This document shows, in pieces, positions 709-64,000 of a stretch of 64,000 nucleotides of DNA. This DNA comes from Sorex araneus (Eukaryota; Chordata; Mammalia; Eulipotyphla; Soricidae): NCBI RefSeq assembly GCF_027595985.1, contig NC_073304.1, positions 213,372,500 to 213,436,499 of the forward strand. The letters are read 5' to 3'. The number at the start of each line of letters is the position of its first letter. Position 1 is the first letter of the stretch. The notes beneath the pieces are model-generated. The model ran no database searches, was not told where the DNA came from, and saw only the letters and a program-made list of their open reading frames with translations. A program made the translations under genes and the position numbers.

Positions 709-867
709 ACTGGGGCGATAGTACAGTGGGTAAGGTGCTTGCCTGGCATATGGTCAACCCGGGTTGGATCCCCGGCATCCCATATGATCCCGTAAGTACC
801 ACCAGGAGTGATTCCTGAGCAGAGTCAGGAATAAGCCCTGAGCATGGTCGGATGTGGCCCCCAAACT
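709..867 (+). mobile_element. Older shrew SINE invaded in its tail by copy A
   Basis: Head CTGGGGCGATAGTACAGTGG and body CCACCAGGAGTGATTCCTGA. Its own tail, GTGTGGCCCCCAAACT-like, continues beyond 1119 after the inserted RTE-tailed SINE. Confidence 0.8.
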
Positions 868-1108
868 GTCACTGTCACTGTCATCCCGTTGCTCATTGAT
901 TTGTTCGAGCGGGCACCAGTAACGTTTCCATTGTGAGACTTATTGTTACTGGTTTTGGCATATCCAATATGCACTGGTAGCTTGCCAGGCTCTGCTGCGC
1001 AGGCTCGATACTCTCGGTAGCTTGCTGGGCTCTCTGAGAGGGGCGGAAGAATCGAACTCGGGTCGGCCAAGTGAAAGGCGAACGCTCTACCGCTGTGCTA
1101 TCACTAGG
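868..1108 (-). mobile_element. RTE-tailed tRNA-headed SINE (copy A)
   Basis: Flanked by a perfect 11 bp duplication GCCCCCAAACT (857-867 and 1109-1119), so it is a discrete insertion, placed in the tail of an older plus-strand SINE. Minus strand: tRNA-like head, then a body different from the common SINE (CGGAAGAATC reversed, AACAATAAGTCTCACAATGG), then the tail ACTGGTGCCCGCTCGAACAA, ending in GACAGT repeats. The tail translates YWCPLEQINEQRDD, like the C-terminus of the LINE at 61961. Confidence 0.88.
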
Positions 1109-1119
1109 GCCCCCAAACT

Positions 1120-5073: not shown

Positions 5074-5255
5074 ACTAGGCTGGAGCGATAGCATAGCGGT
5101 TAGGGCGTTTGCCTTGCAAGCGGCCTACCCAGGTTCGATTCCCAGCATCCTATATGGTTCCCTGAGTACCGCCAGGGGTAATTCCTGAGTGCAGAGCCAG
5201 GAGTGACCCCCCATGCATTGCTGGGTGTGACCCAAAAAGCAAAAAAAAAAAAGAG
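5074..5255 (+). mobile_element. Shrew SINE with 12 bp target duplication
   Basis: AGAATATAAACT at 5062-5073 and 5256-5267. Young-looking, with an intact B box GGTTCGATTCC. Confidence 0.92.
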
Positions 5256-5800: not shown

Positions 5801-6311
5801 CAGGCCAGGGCTCTTTGGATTTGGGCCATTTTTCCTGAGTTTTGCTACCGTTGGCAAGAGCAAAGAGGGCTACCAATCGGGACGGTCCATCCTGGGCTCC
5901 CTCTGTTGCCCCCAGGGACTCTCCCTAGGGGCATGACCCCTACTTCCCACCCTCTAGACTGGCGCTGCCCTCCTGAGGGGGCTTCCTTCCTGGGCATCCC
6001 CTTCTCTCCTACATTCTGAGGCCCAGGCCCCAGCCCCTTGCCCCCTCCAGGAAGCCCCCAGTTTGCTTCATTCCATGAACATTTACTGAGCACTGCAGAT
6101 GCACGGCCTGGATGTGAGTCACTGAGGTGCTCAGTGAAAGCAGCTCCTGAGCCAGAGGAGTGTGGGGGTGTGGGGTGGGGGGCTGACTGCAGGGGGCCTG
6201 GGGAGAGGGCAGTGGGAAAGCCAGTGAGAGGGGAAGGGGGATGAAGCCGCCCTGGGCTGGGAGCCTCCAACAGGGTTGCAGTCTCAGCAAGCCTGGGGTC
6301 CAGAACTGTGT

Positions 6312-6555
6312 ATGTCACTATCGTCCCGTTTGCTCATCGATTTGCTCGAGCGGGCACCAGTAACATCTCCATATGAGACTTGTTGTTACTGTTTTTGGCA
6401 TATCCAATATGCACGGGTAGCTTGCCAGTCTCTGCCGTGCGGGCGAGATACTCTCGGAGCTTGCCGGGCTCTCCAAGAGGAGCGGAGGAATCGAACACGG
6501 GTTGGCCACAGTGGTAAGGCAAACACCCTACCTGCTGTGCTATCGCTCCAGCCCA
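6312..6555 (-). mobile_element. RTE-tailed SINE (copy B)
   Basis: Complete from GGGCTGGAGCGATAGCACAG at its 5' end (6555 side) to the tail CTGGTGCCCGCTCGAGCAAA. One extra base in the tail disrupts the relic frame. No clear target duplication found. Confidence 0.85.
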
Positions 6556-19022: not shown

Positions 19023-19198
19023 TATTTATTTATTGCTTTTTGGGTCACACCTGGCGATGCACAGGGGTTACTCCTGGCTCTGCACTCAGGAATTACCCCT
19101 GGCCGTGCTCAGGGGACCATATGGGATGCTGGGATTTGAACCCAGGTCGGCCGCGTGCAAGGCAAACGCCCTACCCGCTGTGCTATCTCTCCAGCCCC
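19023..19198 (-). mobile_element. Shrew SINE, young, 12 bp target duplication
   Basis: GGATTGTTTATT at 19011-19022 and 19199-19210; TTTA-rich tail. Confidence 0.92.
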
Positions 19199-19650: not shown

Positions 19651-20124
19651 TTTTAAAAAATTTATTTTTTATTGAATCACTGTAAGATACAGTTACAAAG
19701 TTTTCATATTTGATCCACCACCAAACCCCGCATACCCCCCTCCCACCCCTCTCTGCCCGTGTGGCAGACATTTTCCACTTTACTCTTTCCTTACTTTGAT
19801 TACGTTCAATTTTCAACAAGGATCTCACTATCATTATCTGGAGGTTTTCCTCCAACAGTCAGACATGTTGGATGGCATCAGTAGATTGTATGTTTTCATT
19901 TTTTAGAAAAGGTCACGCGGCCTTGTTAGCAGCCGCTCGGTTTGAAGTTGTCCCGGTCCCGCATCCCGGAGCCGGGTTAGTCATTGTTCATTGTCGCCGG
20001 GGCTCCATCTGGAGAAGGCGTACCGTCTGTGCCTCTTCCGTCTGGCTCCCCGGTGTTGCTGGCCCGGTCTGGGGTCCGGAGCAGTCTCCGGCCTGCGCCG
20101 CTTACCAGCCCGCCCGGATTCTTC
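19651..20124 (-). mobile_element. Composite retroposon: GC-rich head joined to L1-type 3' tail
   Basis: Flanked by a perfect 16 bp duplication CCCCAAGAGTACTCTT (19635-19650 and 20125-20140). Reading the minus strand, about 220 bp of CpG-containing sequence (20124 to about 19905) passes into an AT-rich middle and then an L1-like 3' end: G-rich tract, AACTTTGTAACTGTATC, GTGATTCAATAAAAAAT and A-rich tail. No long ORF. It could be an internally deleted or spliced L1 (5' UTR joined to 3' UTR) or a separate composite family. Confidence 0.7.
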
Positions 20125-22827: not shown

Positions 22828-23056
22828 AGCACCGTCCTCCCGTTGTTCATCGATTTGCTTGATGGGCACCAGTAATGTCTCCATTGGGAGACTTGTTGTT
22901 ACTGTTTTTGGCATATTGAATACATCAAGGGTAGCTTGCCAGGCTCTGCTGTGTGGGCGCAATACTCTCGGTATCTTGCCGGGCTCTCGGAGAGGGACAG
23001 AGGAATCGAACCTGGGTTGGCTGCGTGCAAGGCAAACGCCCTACCCTCTGTGCTAT
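22828..23056 (-). mobile_element. RTE-tailed SINE (copy C, 5' end trimmed)
   Basis: Head lacks the first dozen bases and abuts an AAT microsatellite. The tail keeps ATTACTGGTGCCCATCAAGC but ends in GGTGCTAGAGTGCTACC instead of GACAGT repeats. Confidence 0.82.
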
Positions 23057-35169: not shown

Positions 35170-35560
35170 GTAAAAGAAAAACGCTTAGTTGGGGGAGGAA
35201 GTGAATAATAGGTGAAAATGGGATGATGGGGGGAGGGTGGTTAGGTCAGAGAAGGGACCTCTATGACAAAGATAGTGGGAAGTGATCACACTGGATAAGA
35301 ACTGGGTGCTGAAAGGAGGTAAAGTGATATGCAGGATACCCTTTCAGTAACAGTTTGCAAACCACGATGCCTAAAAGAGGAAAGTGCTATAGTGGCAGGC
35401 TGGGGGGCAGGAGGGAAACTGGGCACACTGGTGTAGGGAAGTAGACACTGGTGAAGGGAGGGGTGCTTGAACATTGTAGAACTGAAACTCCATAATGGAT
35501 GACTTTGTAACTTTGTATCCCGTGGTGAGCCAGTAAATGTTAAAAAATATTTTTACAAAA
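35170..35560 (+). mobile_element. L1 3'-end fragment (lineage-specific type)
   Basis: Contains a G-rich polypurine tract (GGCTGGGGGGCAGGAGGG), CACTGGTGAAGGGAGGGGTG, TTGAACATTGTAGAACTGA, CTTTGTAACTTTGTATC and an A-rich end, in the same order as the tails at 62835-63099 and 19651-20124 but more diverged. Confidence 0.65.
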
Positions 35561-35577
35561 AGAAAGTGGGATGGTTT

Positions 35578-35824
35578 CTGTAGCACTGTAGCACTGTAGT
35601 CCAACCCGCATCGATTTGCTCGAGTGGGCACCAGTAACATCTCCATCATGAGACTTCTTGTTACTGTTTTTGGCACATTGAATATGCCACGGGTAGCTTG
35701 CCAGTCTCTGCTGTGTGGCCGAGATACTCTTGGTAGCTTGCCGGGCTGAGAGGGGCGGAGGAATTGAACCTGGGTGGGCTGCATGCAAGGCTAACACCCT
35801 ACCCGCTGTGCTACTGTTCCAGTC
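35578..35824 (-). mobile_element. RTE-tailed SINE (copy D, variant terminal repeat)
   Basis: Inserted in an old L1 3' UTR, flanked by a short duplication GGTTTCT. The tail reads CTGGTGCCCACTCGAGCAAA and ends in tandem CTACAGTG units instead of GACAGT. Confidence 0.84.
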
Positions 35825-35834
35825 CATTAGGTTT

Positions 35835-36449: not shown

Positions 36450-39400
36450 CTAGAGGCAAGAGAAAGAAATAAGAGCCAGGCTCTGGGCCTCTGCCAGCCG
36501 GGCACTCTGTCTGTCTGCAGAGAACCCAGGGGTTCCTCAGGCTGAAACTGGGAATGTCTGGGGTTACCCCGGGTAAGCTGACCTATGGCCACTCTCCTGC
36601 TAGCCTCCAGATAGACCCTTTTTGGCTATTTTCTTTTTTTTTCTTTTTATTGAGTCACACCTGGCGATACACAGGGGTTACTCCTGGCTCTGCACTCAGG
36701 AATTACCCCTGGCCGTGCTCAGGGGACCATATGGGATGCTGGGATTCGAACCTGGGTCGGCCGCGTGCAAGGCAAACGCCCTACCCGCTGTGCTATCGCT
36801 CCAGCCCCATTGGCTATTTTCTTGAGAGGGGGTTGACACCCGGCCGTGTGTGACTTGCTCTGGGCTCTGTTGCCCTGGGATCAGTCCTGGAGATGCTTGG
36901 GGAACTGCATGCAGGCATCCAGCCTGGGTTGGCCACATGCAAGGCAGCACCTTAATCCCCTGGACTGCCTGCCGGCTTCGGACAGACTCGCCAGTGGCTG
37001 AGGGGCTGCCGTCTGCCTGGCCTTCAGTACCAGGGACCCAGGCCTCCCTCCCTTCCCCGTCTCCCCCACGAACACACCTTTCCCGAGACTGTGAGCGGGT
37101 AGCTCGTGACAAACACGAAATAGCGGGGAATCTTGAAGTGGGAGATCTGCAGAGCCAAGACAGGGAGAGTGTCAGGCGGGCGACCCGGGGGCGGTGGGGA
37201 GGGGAGGGGCGGGGCGGGGGCTGGGGCACCCACCTTCCCTTTGCAGAAAGCCTTGAGCTCCTCGGCCGTGGTCTCCTGGCCTGCCTTCAGCCGGATGCAG
37301 GCACAGACTTCCTCCCCCATCCGGTCATCCTTCACTCCCACCACCTTCCAGGGGCAGAGCCACAACTCAGAAGGCCTCTGCCTGTTTCCTGCCTCCCTCC
37401 TGGGGGCGCCCAGCACAGCTTGGGGGCAGGAGGGAGACACGGAAGGGGGAAGCGGGGACCCTCTGGCGGCACGGCAGCTTGGCGTGCAGGGGCCTCACCT
37501 GCACTTCCTGCACCTTGGGGTGTGTGTGGAAGAAGTCCTCCAGCTCCGCGGGGTAGATGTTCTCCCCACCCCGGATGATCATGTCCTTAGAGCGGCCCAC
37601 AATCCTGCAGAAGCCGTCCTTGTCCATCGTGGCGATGTCTCTGCAAGGAAAGCCAGGGATGGCCTCTCTCTCTCTCTCTCCCCTCGGCCTGGTCTGGCTG
37701 GCTGGCTCGCTCGTTCATCACACACTTAGCGAGCACCTATGATGTGTCCGACGCTGTGTTAGGCTGAGGGGGTGGTAGGGGGGGAGGGGGACAGCAGGAA
37801 CAAGAAGACATTCCCTGGGACTCGAGAGAGGAGGAGGAAGCCAAAACCGAGCCGCCCCCCACCCTCCCTCCCCGCAGTCTCGACCCGTCTCCTCACCCCG
37901 TCCGATACCACTTGTCTGGTCCGATGACCTCGTCTGTCTTCTGGGGCTCGCCCCAGTAGCCCAGCATGACACAATACCCGCGGATGCACAGCTCTCCCGG
38001 CGCGTTCAGCTCCACCAGCTCCCCGGTCTGCTGGTCAATGATCTGGGCCTGGGAAATCCGACGGCTTCAGGTCAGGGGCTCCCTCCCACCCCCTCACCTT
38101 TCAGAACGAAAGCCTCGGGGTGAGGGCGAAGGGGAGGGGGCCTTGGCATTCCCTCCCCCCAGTCACGCAGCTCCTAGGTTTTGCAATGCCACTCCAGGGC
38201 AGGACGGCAAAGGCCGCCCGCAGCCGGCCACCTGTGCTGGCATGAGAGTATCTCAGAGGCCCACGTGGGGTCTTCAGGCAGGAGTGCCACGGAGGGCCGG
38301 GCCAGCTGCAGGATCCGAGGCTGCCCGGCAGGAGAGAGAGTCTCCCCCAACAAGCCGTGAAGCAGCAAACAGAGAAGCCGCAGAGGGTGGCGTGGCCAGG
38401 CAGCAGTCGGGAAGCCTGGGACAGAAATGTCCCGCTGCCCCAGACAGGCCAGGGATGGTCTGAAGTGGAGGGCATGCGGGGGTGGGTGTCCCGGGGAGCA
38501 GCACGGGCCCATCAGAACCCCTGGCTGGGCAGAGGCAGCCCAGGATGGTGAAGAAGAGCGGCCGCTAGGGGACGTGGGCTGTGACCCCAGAGGGGACAGG
38601 GAAGCCCAGTACACGAGGACATGCCACACTGGTGCCAGAGCTGGGGGTCTGAGAGGAGCCCTTCTGTGCAAAGACCCCAAAGGGCCAGGCGGCTTTGGAA
38701 ACCCTGTGCTGATGGCAAATGAGAAAAGCACCGCTCGGTGGGGGTGGGGTGCTGGGGCCTGGGGGGGGGCGTGTAGCCCGGCAGGCTGGGCACAGGCAGC
38801 AGCAGGCAGCAGGCTCCAGCCTGAGTCCCCAGGCTGCAGGGTACTCTGAGCACAACTGGGAGAGACCCCCCGAGCACTGAGCCCAGAGTAGCTCCTCAGC
38901 ACCACAGGGACTTGGTCCCCAAACCCAATAGCAAAAAGGGTGAAAAGGCTGTTGTGAGGCAGGGAGGGGCGGGGGAGAGAGAACGGGGTGGGAGGGGTGG
39001 AAACAGTCTCGGCGCGCTCTCCTCTCTGAGCTGCCGTGGCTTCCCCAGGCCGACTGAGGGGTTTGGCAAAAACACCTCGGGCGGGAAGGGAGGCTGCGGA
39101 GAAGCCCAGCTGGCCGCGGCGTTTGCCACTGCGCCGCTCTGCCCATTAGACCCCCACCTGGCCTGGCCTGGCTGGGGAGCCCGACTTGATCCTGGGGTGC
39201 TCAGGGTCCGAGCGGTTTGGATCAGTCATGGAGAGAAACCCCGGCCGTGGGGGGCGCCGGGGCTCACCTCTGTGTGAGGCATTACTCTGCCCACAGTCTC
39301 CGCCTTCTGCTCCGTGGTGTCCTCGGCAAAGGTCATGAAGGTCACCGGACTGTTCTCGGTGGTTCCGTATGCCACCTGGAGGGGGCCCAGGGAGGTGTTT

Positions 39401-59994: not shown

Positions 59995-61418
59995 AGCGGG
60001 TATGGTGCTGCCCAGCAGGTCAGCCTGGCGAGTGCATCAGCAGCCTGATGGGGCCTTCGGGTTTCCTGATACCCAACATTGCCGCTGTGCCTCTGGCCGG
60101 ACCCCAACAACTTGAGACCAAGTTTCCTGAAAAATTAAACGGCCAAAAGTTAAGTATGTGGGAGTCAGGCTCACAAACCACCTCTGGCTCAGCTATACAA
60201 GCTCACTTATCCGCCTTGCTTCAGAGACCCATAAATAAATCTCAAAAGAGATGAAAATCATTTAAGCGCATTAGCGGTCGTGATTAGAGACTCACACATG
60301 AATCTCGGAGGAGAGCAGCGTGCCGCAGAGATGTCGCCCCACCCCACGCCAGGCTGATTTCACCAGGGCATCTCGGAGGGGGACCCGTGTGTCCCTGCAC
60401 CTGTCCCAAATGAACCCCGGCAGCTGCAAACCTCCAGAACCCAAGCGGTGCCATGCTCACGGCTGACAGTCACAGGCTCATCCCCAGCCCCCCACGCATG
60501 AGAATGAATCTGCTAAAAAACTCAGGTATTCAGGACCAGCGACTGAAAACTCCAGGTTGCACAGAGTCGGTATGGGCAACCTCCCCCCATCTCCCCACTC
60601 TTCCAGTTTCCTGGCAGTCATGCCCAAGAACTGCCTCTAGGTGCCATTTAAGCGCCTTAACAGCCATGATTCAGAGACTCACAAATGAATCTCAGAAGAA
60701 AGCAGCACACCACAGAGATGCCTCCAGACTTCAAATATTTAAAAATTTTAGAATTCCAGGAGGATGCGGCCACTTTTGAGACCACATGATATTCATTATG
60801 TGGTCTCAAAATAGTACCACATCGTACTATTCATGGTGGGTAATACAAAATAAATTTTGTATGCCTTCAGACCTCAAATATTTAAAAATTTTAGAATTCC
60901 AGGAGCATGCGGCCACTTTTGAGACCACATGATGTTCGTCATGTGGTCTCAAAATAGTACCACATCGTACTATTCATGGCGAGTAATACAAAATAAATCA
61001 CTTAGCATCTGCCTAAGGAGCAGGCTGGGATGGTGGTGGTAAGATTCAAAGTAGTGGTGGTGGGAATGCATAATGGTGGTGGGATTGGTGTTGAAATATT
61101 GAATGTAAACAATTATTGTAAACAACTTTATGAACAATTTAAAACTTAAATTTTTTTTGCTTTTTGGGTCACACCTGACAATGCACAGGGGTTAATCCTG
61201 GCTCTGCACTCAATAATTACTCCTAGTGGTGCTCAGGGGACCATATGGGATGCTGAGAATCAAACCCGGGTTGGCCGAGTGCAAGGCAAACGCCCTACCT
61301 GCTGTGCTATCACTCCAGCCCCCAAATTTTTAAAAAGTAATGTGGGGTTCATGCCTGCTTCAATCAGCTTAATCAGTGGCTGAATAAGTAGCGGTATTCC
61401 CACAAAAAAATTTTAAAA
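59995..61418 (+). mobile_element. Composite repeat with duplicated hairpin units and L1-like 3' end
   Basis: Flanked by imperfect copies of AAAGAATGRYGCACAGARC (59979-59997 and 61419-61437; 16 of 19 positions agree), which could be an aged target duplication. Inside, a segment of about 80 bp occurs at 60257-60338 and again at 60646-60726, and a 143 bp unit occurs twice in tandem (60725-60867 and 60868 to about 61000). The distal part (GGTGGTGGGATTGGTGTTGA, AACAACTTTATGAACAA) resembles an L1 3' UTR. A shrew SINE (61151-61322) is inserted near the tail. Family unrecognised. Confidence 0.55.
61151..61322 (-). mobile_element. Shrew SINE within the composite repeat
   Basis: AAATTTTT-type duplication on both sides. 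Confidence 0.85.
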
Positions 61419-61942: not shown

Positions 61943-61960
61943 AAATAATCTTTTTATAAA

Positions 61961-64000
61961 CTGATCACTTGTATCACTTGTCATCCCGTTGATCTTCGAT
62001 TTGATCAAGTGAGTGCCAGTAACGTCTTTATTTGTCCCTGTCATGTGCTAGTGTAGCCTAATGGTATCTGCTCGCTCCAGGAACACAAAGAGCCTCAAAC
62101 TATTCGTTCAGGGTCTTGACGAAAAAGTCTGATTATCTCGTAGGTGAGCGGCCACGCGATCTTTTGACATCCTGTGGAAACCAGTCAGTAACAGCTCTAG
62201 TCCAGCAGTCGTCTCTAAATCACATTACGTGTACTGCCCATCTGATTTTTGATGCCTTGGCAAATGAGACAGAGTCCCTGATTCTTGATCATCGATGGAG
62301 GTCAGAACTCCGGATTCCTTCTCTCACTTGAGTGAAACGTGATACTCCGAACATAGCTCTTTTGATTTCTCTTTGGAATACCCTAATAGCGTTCTCATCC
62401 TGTTCTCGTAGGGCCCAGGTCTCTGAGGCATATATTAGTGCAGGAAGAATGGTGGACTCGAAAAGATGTCCCTGGAGCCAGAGGTTCTTTGTCCTCTTAA
62501 CAACTTCTTCGACGCTCTTGAAGGCGTTCCACGCTGCTCTCTTCCTTCTGTGCAGTTCTGGCACCAAGTCATTCCTCATGTTGATTTCTCAACCCAGGCA
62601 CACACAGGGCAGCCATGCTGCATTCGGAGATGTTTGTTCCATTGAGAGCAAATGGAGCGACAGGGACTAGTTCGATTTTCATGAACATTGTCTTGGTGAG
62701 ATTCAGCTGCAGTCCGACCTTTCCACACTCTGGTCGAAGTCGGCCAGCATTTGTGCTGCTTGGCTAATGTTTGGCGTTATGAGAATGATGTCATCAGTGA
62801 AGCCTAAGTAATGTAGCTGCCAACCATCTATCTTTTCTTTTTAATTTTTTTCTTGAATAATTTTTTTAATTCTTTTATTGAATCACCATGTGGAAAGTTA
62901 CAAAGCTTTCAGGTTTAAGTCTCAGTTATACAATGCTCGAACACCCATCCCTTCACCAGTGCACATATAACACCACCAAGAATCACAGTATACCTCCTCC
63001 CCACAACCCCACCTCCCCAGCCCCCCACCCCGCCTGTGTAACTGGTAAATTTCACTTTACTTTCACTTTACTTTGATTACATTCAATATTTCAACAACGA
63101 CCATCTATCTTCACTCCAATTCTTTCCCATTCCAGTCGTCACATGACGTTCTCAAGGGTGGCACTGAAGAGTTTCGGTGAAATGGTATCACTCTGCTGAA
63201 CCCCTCTCTTTACGTCGATGGTCACTTCCTTGTAGAATGGTGAGATCCTAGTGGTGAACCCGTAATACAGCTCGCAGAGGATCCTGATGTGTTGAGTTTG
63301 AATGCCCTGTTTGGCTAAGGCTTCAATGACCACTTCGGTCTCAACAGAATCAAAGGCTTTCTTTAAGTCGATGAACGTTAGACAGAGTGGCATCTTGAAC
63401 TTTTGCAAAATTTCAATGAGCTTGGTCACCATGTGGATATGGTCAATTGTACTGAGTCCTTTTCGAACCCGGCTTGCTCGCATGGTTGTCCTTCACCTAG
63501 TGTTCTGCCTATTCTATTCAGGATGACTCAAGTAAACAATTTGTAGATGACAGACAACAGGCAGATTGGGCGATAGTTGCCGATGTTGTGGATGTTTCCT
63601 TTCTTGAACAACAGAATGGTCCTGTTGGTTTTTCATTGGGATGGAACCTTGCATTCGGAGAGGTAGCATGTGAAGAGCTGAACCAGTGTGTTGACGAGTA
63701 CTGGCAGCAGATTCTTCAGGTGTTCGGGTCTGATCTTGTCTGGACTGGGTGCTGTACGCGTCTTTACCAATAAAATGGCGTGTCGGATTTCGGAAGGGAG
63801 AACGTTGGGAACGACATATCCATCCTGCAGAATTTGTTATGTGGGCAGGTGGACATGGCTATCGAAGATATCTGAGCAGGAGTCGTGAATAATCCTCTCC
63901 ATTGCCCTTCTGGAAGATGTGATAGATCCATTAGGACGTCAGAGGGCATTCACCCGGGTCTTGTAATTGGTGAAGGACAGGCAAGCGTTATGAATACTTT
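61961..64000 (-). pseudogene. RTE-clade LINE, degenerate reverse transcriptase copy (3' part; continues past right edge)
   Basis: The minus strand encodes broken pieces of an endonuclease-reverse transcriptase of the RTE type: PSEIRHAIL, GNYRPICLLSVIYKLF, LCLTFIDLKKAFDSVE, DTISPKLFSATLE, the catalytic region FTDDIILITPN (FADD expected), RRKRAAW, ILPALIYASETWALRE, FTQVREGIRSS and a C-terminus ending YWHSLDQIEDQRDDK then TGA. Several in-frame stops and at least one frameshift (near 63480) show it is dead. As I remember them, the closest sequences are RTE elements of strongylid nematodes, not the BovB type of ruminants and snakes. The end at about 61961 has short tandem units (ACAAGTGAT twice), as RTE elements do. 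It probably lies in ACSF2 intron 1, in sense orientation. Another element splits it at 62835-63099. Confidence 0.88.
62835..63099 (-). mobile_element. L1-type 3'-end retroposon inserted in the RTE copy
   Basis: Flanked by a perfect 12 bp target duplication ACCATCTATCTT (62823-62834 and 63100-63111). On the minus strand it has a G-rich tract, then AAGCTTTGTAACTTTCC, GGTGATTCAATAAA and an A-rich tail, the same tail as the elements at 19651-20124 and 35170-35560. Removing it restores the LINE frame across the junction (GVKIDG to WQLHYL). Confidence 0.85.

Follow-up and report, generated by a model that had tools for sequence, protein, structure and literature searches.

A SINE near one end of the 64,000-nucleotide stretch of shrew DNA analyzed here (the window) has a tail that resembles the 3' end of a LINE near the other end. 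The question raised by this locus is whether the SINE gained its tail from such a LINE and has been mobilized by it. Judging from the sequences of four SINE copies and one LINE end in one window, we consider it very probable that a Sor-type tRNA SINE gained the 3' end of an RTE LINE and was mobilized by that LINE. The features on which the argument rests are listed in Table 1.

Table 1. Positions, strands and basis of assignment of the features in the window
Feature	Positions	Strand	Basis
c1, RTE-tailed SINE, main element	868-1108	-	sequence search and alignment
c1 head, tRNA-Ala-like, common to the Sor SINE	1049-1108	-	consensus heads 58/64; ARAGORN on Sor copies
c1 body, matching neither the Sor body nor the 2 kb of LINE in the window	933-1048	-	internal repeat of 18 bp (consensus 17/18)
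c1 LINE-derived tail, C-terminal codons and terminal ACAGTG units	868-932	-	alignment to the LINE
Possible stem-loop, 5' arm in the body, 3' arm in the LINE-derived tail	910-958	-	weak, found by eye
Target site duplication GCCCCCAAACT, 3' side of c1	857-867	.	exact repeat
Target site duplication GCCCCCAAACT, 5' side of c1	1109-1119	.	exact repeat
Sor-type SINE hosting the c1 insertion; its tail picks up again after 1119	710-866	+	Sor search and joined flanks
c2, RTE-tailed SINE	6304-6554	-	sequence search; no target duplication found
c3, RTE-tailed SINE, 5' end lost	22830-23056	-	sequence search; without convincing target duplication
c4, RTE-tailed SINE	35575-35825	-	sequence search; 7 bp repeat AGAAACC at the ends
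RTE-type LINE, 3' part, decayed, running off the window; 3' boundary approximate	61959-64000	-	RVT_1 and reading frames
LINE C-terminal codons common to the SINE tail; stop codon 61974-61976	61974-62032	-	alignment and reading frames

The SINE and its copies in the window

The main copy, c1, is flanked by an exact 11 bp repeat, GCCCCCAAACT, which extends to 12 bp (856-867 and 1108-1119) if the neighboring G is counted. When c1 was excised in silico and its flanks were joined, an unbroken older Sor-type SINE was recovered (local score of 97.5 against the Sor consensus). Because the joined flanks restore an uninterrupted Sor-type SINE tail, c1 was inserted as a unit, as had already been proposed from the 11 bp duplication.

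Four long copies of the RTE-tailed SINE were present in the 64 kb window, all on the minus strand. They have a common structure and pairwise identities of 188/245 to 210/249 (77-84%), and none of the four ends in an A-rich 3' tail. Target duplications were looked for at c2 and c3, and none was convincing. At c4, a 9 bp AT-rich repeat lies farther out than the 7 bp repeat and was left unused. The SINE has probably not been active recently, because the copies in the window are only 77-84% alike. In a 2011 tabulation of young families in mammals (<1% divergence), the shrew has LTR elements only, with neither SINE nor RTE, in the part of the paper that was available (PMC3183009). No Rfam family matched the SINE at gathering scores, and scans of IMG/VR and GTDB for further copies returned 0 matches each.

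Similarity of the SINE tail to the LINE 3' end

Alignment of c1 (868-1110) with the LINE gave 46 identities in 59 columns at LINE positions 62032-61974, with a score of 31.5 that none of 500 shuffled sequences reached (mean 12.5, maximum 20.5). BLASTN of the window alone paired the SINE (minus strand) with LINE positions 62032-61958 (57/75 columns, 76.0%, E 1.6e-8); the final columns of this 75-column alignment (SINE 863-867) belong to the target duplication and lie outside the element. A consensus of the four SINE copies scored 38.5 against the LINE with its ends included, and 33.0 (43/53 columns) with the terminal repeats trimmed off, with 0/500 shuffles as high in either case. Against the LINE, c2, c3 and c4 each outscored 200 of 200 shuffles. 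The majority consensus reached 36.5 at the LINE end versus at best 12.0 elsewhere in the LINE.

The c1 match is in phase with the RT reading frame and ends at the LINE stop codon. Read in frame, c1 gives YWCPLEQINEQRDD and the LINE YWHSLDQIEDQRDDK followed by a stop, while the SINE consensus gives QWRRYWCPLEQIDEQRDD where the LINE reads K-stop-RRYWHSLDQIEDQRDDK-stop. Where the window LINE copy has its inner stop, a Trp codon stands in each of the four SINE copies, and the tail therefore derives from a relative of that LINE copy. The LINE 3' UTR is short (at most 36 bp), because a Sor copy begins 36 bp beyond the stop codon. Both elements finish in short units containing ACAGTG or ACAAGTG. These units are alike without being identical: GACAGT in c1 (about 6 bp), CTACAGTG in c4 (8 bp) and ACAAGTGAT in the LINE (9 bp). 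Different terminal units are also found in reptilian BovB and its partner, the Sauria SINE (PMC13295347).

The sequence-only reading had counted about 40 identities in about 52 positions by hand, had given the two frames of c1 and the LINE, and had supposed that the SINE carries C-terminal codons since RTE 3' UTRs are short. The computed alignment agrees with the hand count, the frames are exact as given, and the length of the UTR and the in-frame match up to the stop bear out the supposition. Its placement of the LINE match at 61961-62045 needs revision: the similarity is real, the match spans 61974-62032, and the LINE continues to the end of the window.

Head, body and relation to the Sor SINE

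The window contains many A-tailed SINEs, 63 as BLAST hits, which we take to be Sor by their shrew primer sites. Exact sites for the Soricidae SINE primers and probe, whose sequences were taken from the available text of PMC8608897, numbered 1 (forward), 9 (reverse) and 0 (probe); with up to 2 mismatches there were 14, 23 and 5 sites. The abundance of Sor-like SINEs and these primer sites support the assignment to a shrew made in the sequence-only reading. The Sor SINE of shrews goes back to Borodulina and Kramerov (2001), as cited in the part of PMC11240701 that was available. For the Sor set, 40 near-complete copies were kept from the 63 hits and 23 were dropped.

Over the first ~64 bp, the window consensuses of the RTE-tailed SINE and Sor are identical at 58 of 64 positions. 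ARAGORN called tRNA-Ala with anticodon TGC in three Sor copies (5081-5153, 19121-19193 and 36731-36803), and made no tRNA call on the four heads of the RTE-tailed SINE (0/4). Beyond this common head, Sor differs in its A-rich tail, in its body and in having no match to the LINE. The RTE-tailed SINE is not Sor itself, as both the A-rich 3' tail and the Sor body are absent from it. As a control within the window, the Sor consensus was compared with the LINE and did not match (176/500 shuffles reached the score).

The body of ~115 bp contains an internal 18 bp repeat (17/18 in the consensus), seen as AGAGCC(C/T)GGCAAGCTACC present twice in the consensus. It matched neither the Sor body (210/500 shuffles reached the score) nor the last 2 kb of the LINE (396/500). 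By analogy with other SINEs, the body is predicted to derive from an RTE 5' UTR. SINEs of the RTE type often have part of the RTE 5' UTR in this position; for BovB this was reportedly described in 2008 by Gogolevsky and others. Part of the tail also comes from an RTE 5' UTR in the AviRTE SINEs (PMC4844689) and in hagfish SINEs (PMC7245038), according to the available text of both papers.

Identity of the LINE

RVT_1 (Pfam) matched the LINE at 63139-63492 (E 1.8e-8). The closest solved chains to the RT piece were R2 and then L1 proteins, which indicates a LINE-type RT. We tentatively assign the LINE to the RTE clade from its anatomy (short 3' UTR, non-A terminal units) and from the name given in the sequence-only reading. 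The LINE 5' end and its duplication fall outside the window. Searches for LINE relatives in IMG/VR and GTDB gave 7, 3 and 24 pattern matches, none of which was confirmed by tblastn, and a search of the phage collection found nothing.

Several other repeats were observed in the course of this analysis. An L1-like 3' fragment with an A-rich end lies inside the RTE LINE at 62823-63111, with AAGATAGATGGT on either side of it as a 12 bp duplication (63100-63111 and 62823-62834). Two stretches, 35398-35565 and 19714-19822, resemble the L1-like part of the LINE query. At 60718-60998 there are two direct copies of 138 bp, 94% alike and with a spacing of 143, each with a near-perfect hairpin of 16-17 nt; the pair resembles a duplicated short palindromic element.

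By description rather than by sequence comparison, the LINE is probably RTE1_Sar, a highly abundant RTE of the shrew (PMC6542046, in the part available). In the same part, Dunemann and Wasmuth report RTE1_Sar from nine parasitic nematode species and from no other mammal genome searched, and conclude that it was transferred horizontally. The words SINE and SINEs are absent from the main text of that paper (PMC6542046). The partner of the SINE may instead be an RTE other than RTE1_Sar, to which the nematode link would not apply. We consider this rather unlikely: the Pfam match would allow it, as it says reverse transcriptase only, but RTE1_Sar is the shrew RTE described as highly abundant in the available text of PMC6542046, and the window is Soricidae-like by its Sor SINEs and the published primer sites.

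Insertion sites and mode of mobilization

The usable insertion sites, those of c1 (CCTTTTATTTAGTT/AGTTTGG) and c4 (ATTTCCATCACCTT/AGAAACC), both show T/A with TTT at -13 to -9 (2/2), a range chosen after inspection of these two sites. This combination is found at 0.14% of positions on one strand and at 0.18% on the other. In the available text of PMC13295347, BovB duplications begin with A after T, ~10 bases downstream of three Ts; plant RTE LINEs have sites like those of BovB, and the authors suppose the same for most of the clade. The c1 and c4 sites fit the Tn-TA pattern of that paper, a good sign so far as two sites can suggest it. None of 17 Sor sites fits the T/A and TTT pattern, and 13 of the 17 repeats begin with AA. 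These 17 are the copies among the 40 with an exact repeat of at least 9 bp near the ends, a loose search in which some repeats are possibly due to chance.

These sites bear on the possibility that the RTE tail is a passive relic of recombination and that L1 copies the SINE, as it presumably does Sor. Such a course would suit a head identical in kind to that of the A-tailed Sor. It would also suit the L1-like fragment inside the LINE, whose A-rich end and 12 bp duplication mean that poly(A)-type machinery operated in this genome. However, no copy of the RTE-tailed SINE has an A-rich end, and the c1 and c4 sites have the RTE pattern that the Sor sites lack. We regard a passive relic as improbable.

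It is slightly less probable still that a SINE fragment, inserted in the LINE or fused to it, makes up the LINE end, in which case the similarity would be one of SINE to SINE. The restriction of the match to the last 59-75 LINE columns would agree with this. Against it, the segment prolongs the LINE reading frame to the stop, the frame just upstream is absent from the SINE, and neither the SINE body nor the tRNA head is matched at the LINE end. Chance similarity, which might be suspected of a resemblance spotted by eye in 64 kb, is negligible against 0/500 shuffles and an in-frame match to the C-terminal codons that recurs in all four copies.

Mobilization by the RTE LINE is the reading that we prefer. 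The SINE would then be a chimera of a tRNA-Ala-type pol III head, as in Sor, a body of ~115 bp, the last ~65 bp of an RTE LINE, and tandem units. Its RNA would be transcribed by pol III, and the RTE protein would bind it in trans via the common 3' end. After a nick by the RTE endonuclease at a T/A site, the RT would reverse-transcribe the SINE RNA there, giving rise to the target duplication. The sequence-only reading had spoken of direct evidence for a LINE-SINE 3' partnership. Partnership is indeed the best reading of the data, but "direct" is too strong a word, because the evidence comes from sequence and from a single window.

Candidate stem-loop across the body/tail junction

A possible stem-loop spans the junction of body and tail. 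Its candidate arms pair CAGTAAC..GTCTC of the body with GAGAC and GTTACTG of the tail, and a counterpart was observed at the same place in c2, c3 and c4. Pairing was present in 46 of 48 cells across the four copies, with no pair changed on both sides. Folds of single copies gave z-scores of -2.4, -1.7, -2.1 and -1.9, with the c3 stretch trimmed to the inner stem only, and the corresponding LINE stretch gave -0.1. The last 123 nt of c1 folded with a z-score of -0.79, and the preferred fold of the whole c3 3' part is without the outer stem. The consensus fold was also without the outer stem (z -2.07; 34/1000 shuffles as low). The 152 nt at the LINE 3' end gave z -2.26, in a different structure. 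The junction stem-loop is thus a weakly predicted 3' element, which is not the minimum-energy structure in every trial, and we treat it as a lead.

A fuller version of the preferred reading is that a shrew tRNA SINE swapped its L1-type A tail for the nematode-derived 3' end of RTE1_Sar, with the stem-loop of body and tail perhaps serving as the recognition element. In our judgment the chances for and against this version are evenly balanced.

Implications

The greater interest of the locus is that its SINE tail may have come from a nematode. If the LINE is RTE1_Sar, the SINE is necessarily younger than the horizontal transfer, and the birth of the SINE, the date of the transfer and shrew phylogeny could therefore be linked. 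If the preferred reading is true, the shrew has two SINE families that have the same head but different tails, the A tail of Sor and the RTE tail. The two families would serve as a natural experiment for comparing L1-type with RTE-type mobilization and the insertion sites of each.

Comparison with known SINE/LINE pairs

Mammalian SINEs with a tRNA head and an RTE-clade 3' end include Bov-tA, Ped-2, AfroSINE, SINE2-1_EC, SINE2-1_Pca and Mar-1 (PMC3747384, Table 1, in the part available). The 13 mammal rows of this table include no shrew pair, and "Sorex" is absent from the available text of the paper. No description of the pair was found among the matches listed in the literature search, in the portions of the papers that were available; Repbase, Dfam and SINEBase may well hold a consensus. 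Pairing of this kind is well known (BovB, AfroSINE, AviRTE), and the novelty therefore lies in the pair. The shrew SINE and its RTE are a probable new pair of a well-known class. The sequence-only reading had likened them to BovB and its SINEs and had known of no description: the kind matches and no account of the pair was found in the available texts, but the kind itself is far from new.

In the available descriptions, the RTE/BovB SINEs of mammals resemble the shrew SINE in their tRNA head and in a 3' end common with an RTE-clade LINE, whereas the partner LINE is another. Ped-2 takes its head from an existing SINE (ID), as the RTE-tailed SINE takes a Sor-type head. The window LINE resembles RTE1_Sar in being a shrew RTE, and is likely the same element, a likeness that rests on description. 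The duplications of Sauria SINEs begin with T in the available text of PMC13295347, unlike those of c1 and c4, which begin with A as in BovB LINEs.

The AviRTE SINEs of birds (ManaSINE1 and others) likewise arose within a host by the joining of a local head to an RTE 3' end, the RTE being shared horizontally with nematodes (PMC4844689). They differ in their host, birds, and in their RTE, and a bipartite tail of 5' UTR and 3' UTR is established there. The hagfish SINEs SINE1-1_EBu and SINE2-1_EBu also combine a head with an RTE tail, which is bipartite in hagfish (PMC7245038, in the part available). They differ from the shrew SINE in that SINE1-1_EBu has a 7SL head and the 5' UTR-derived part is established in hagfish.
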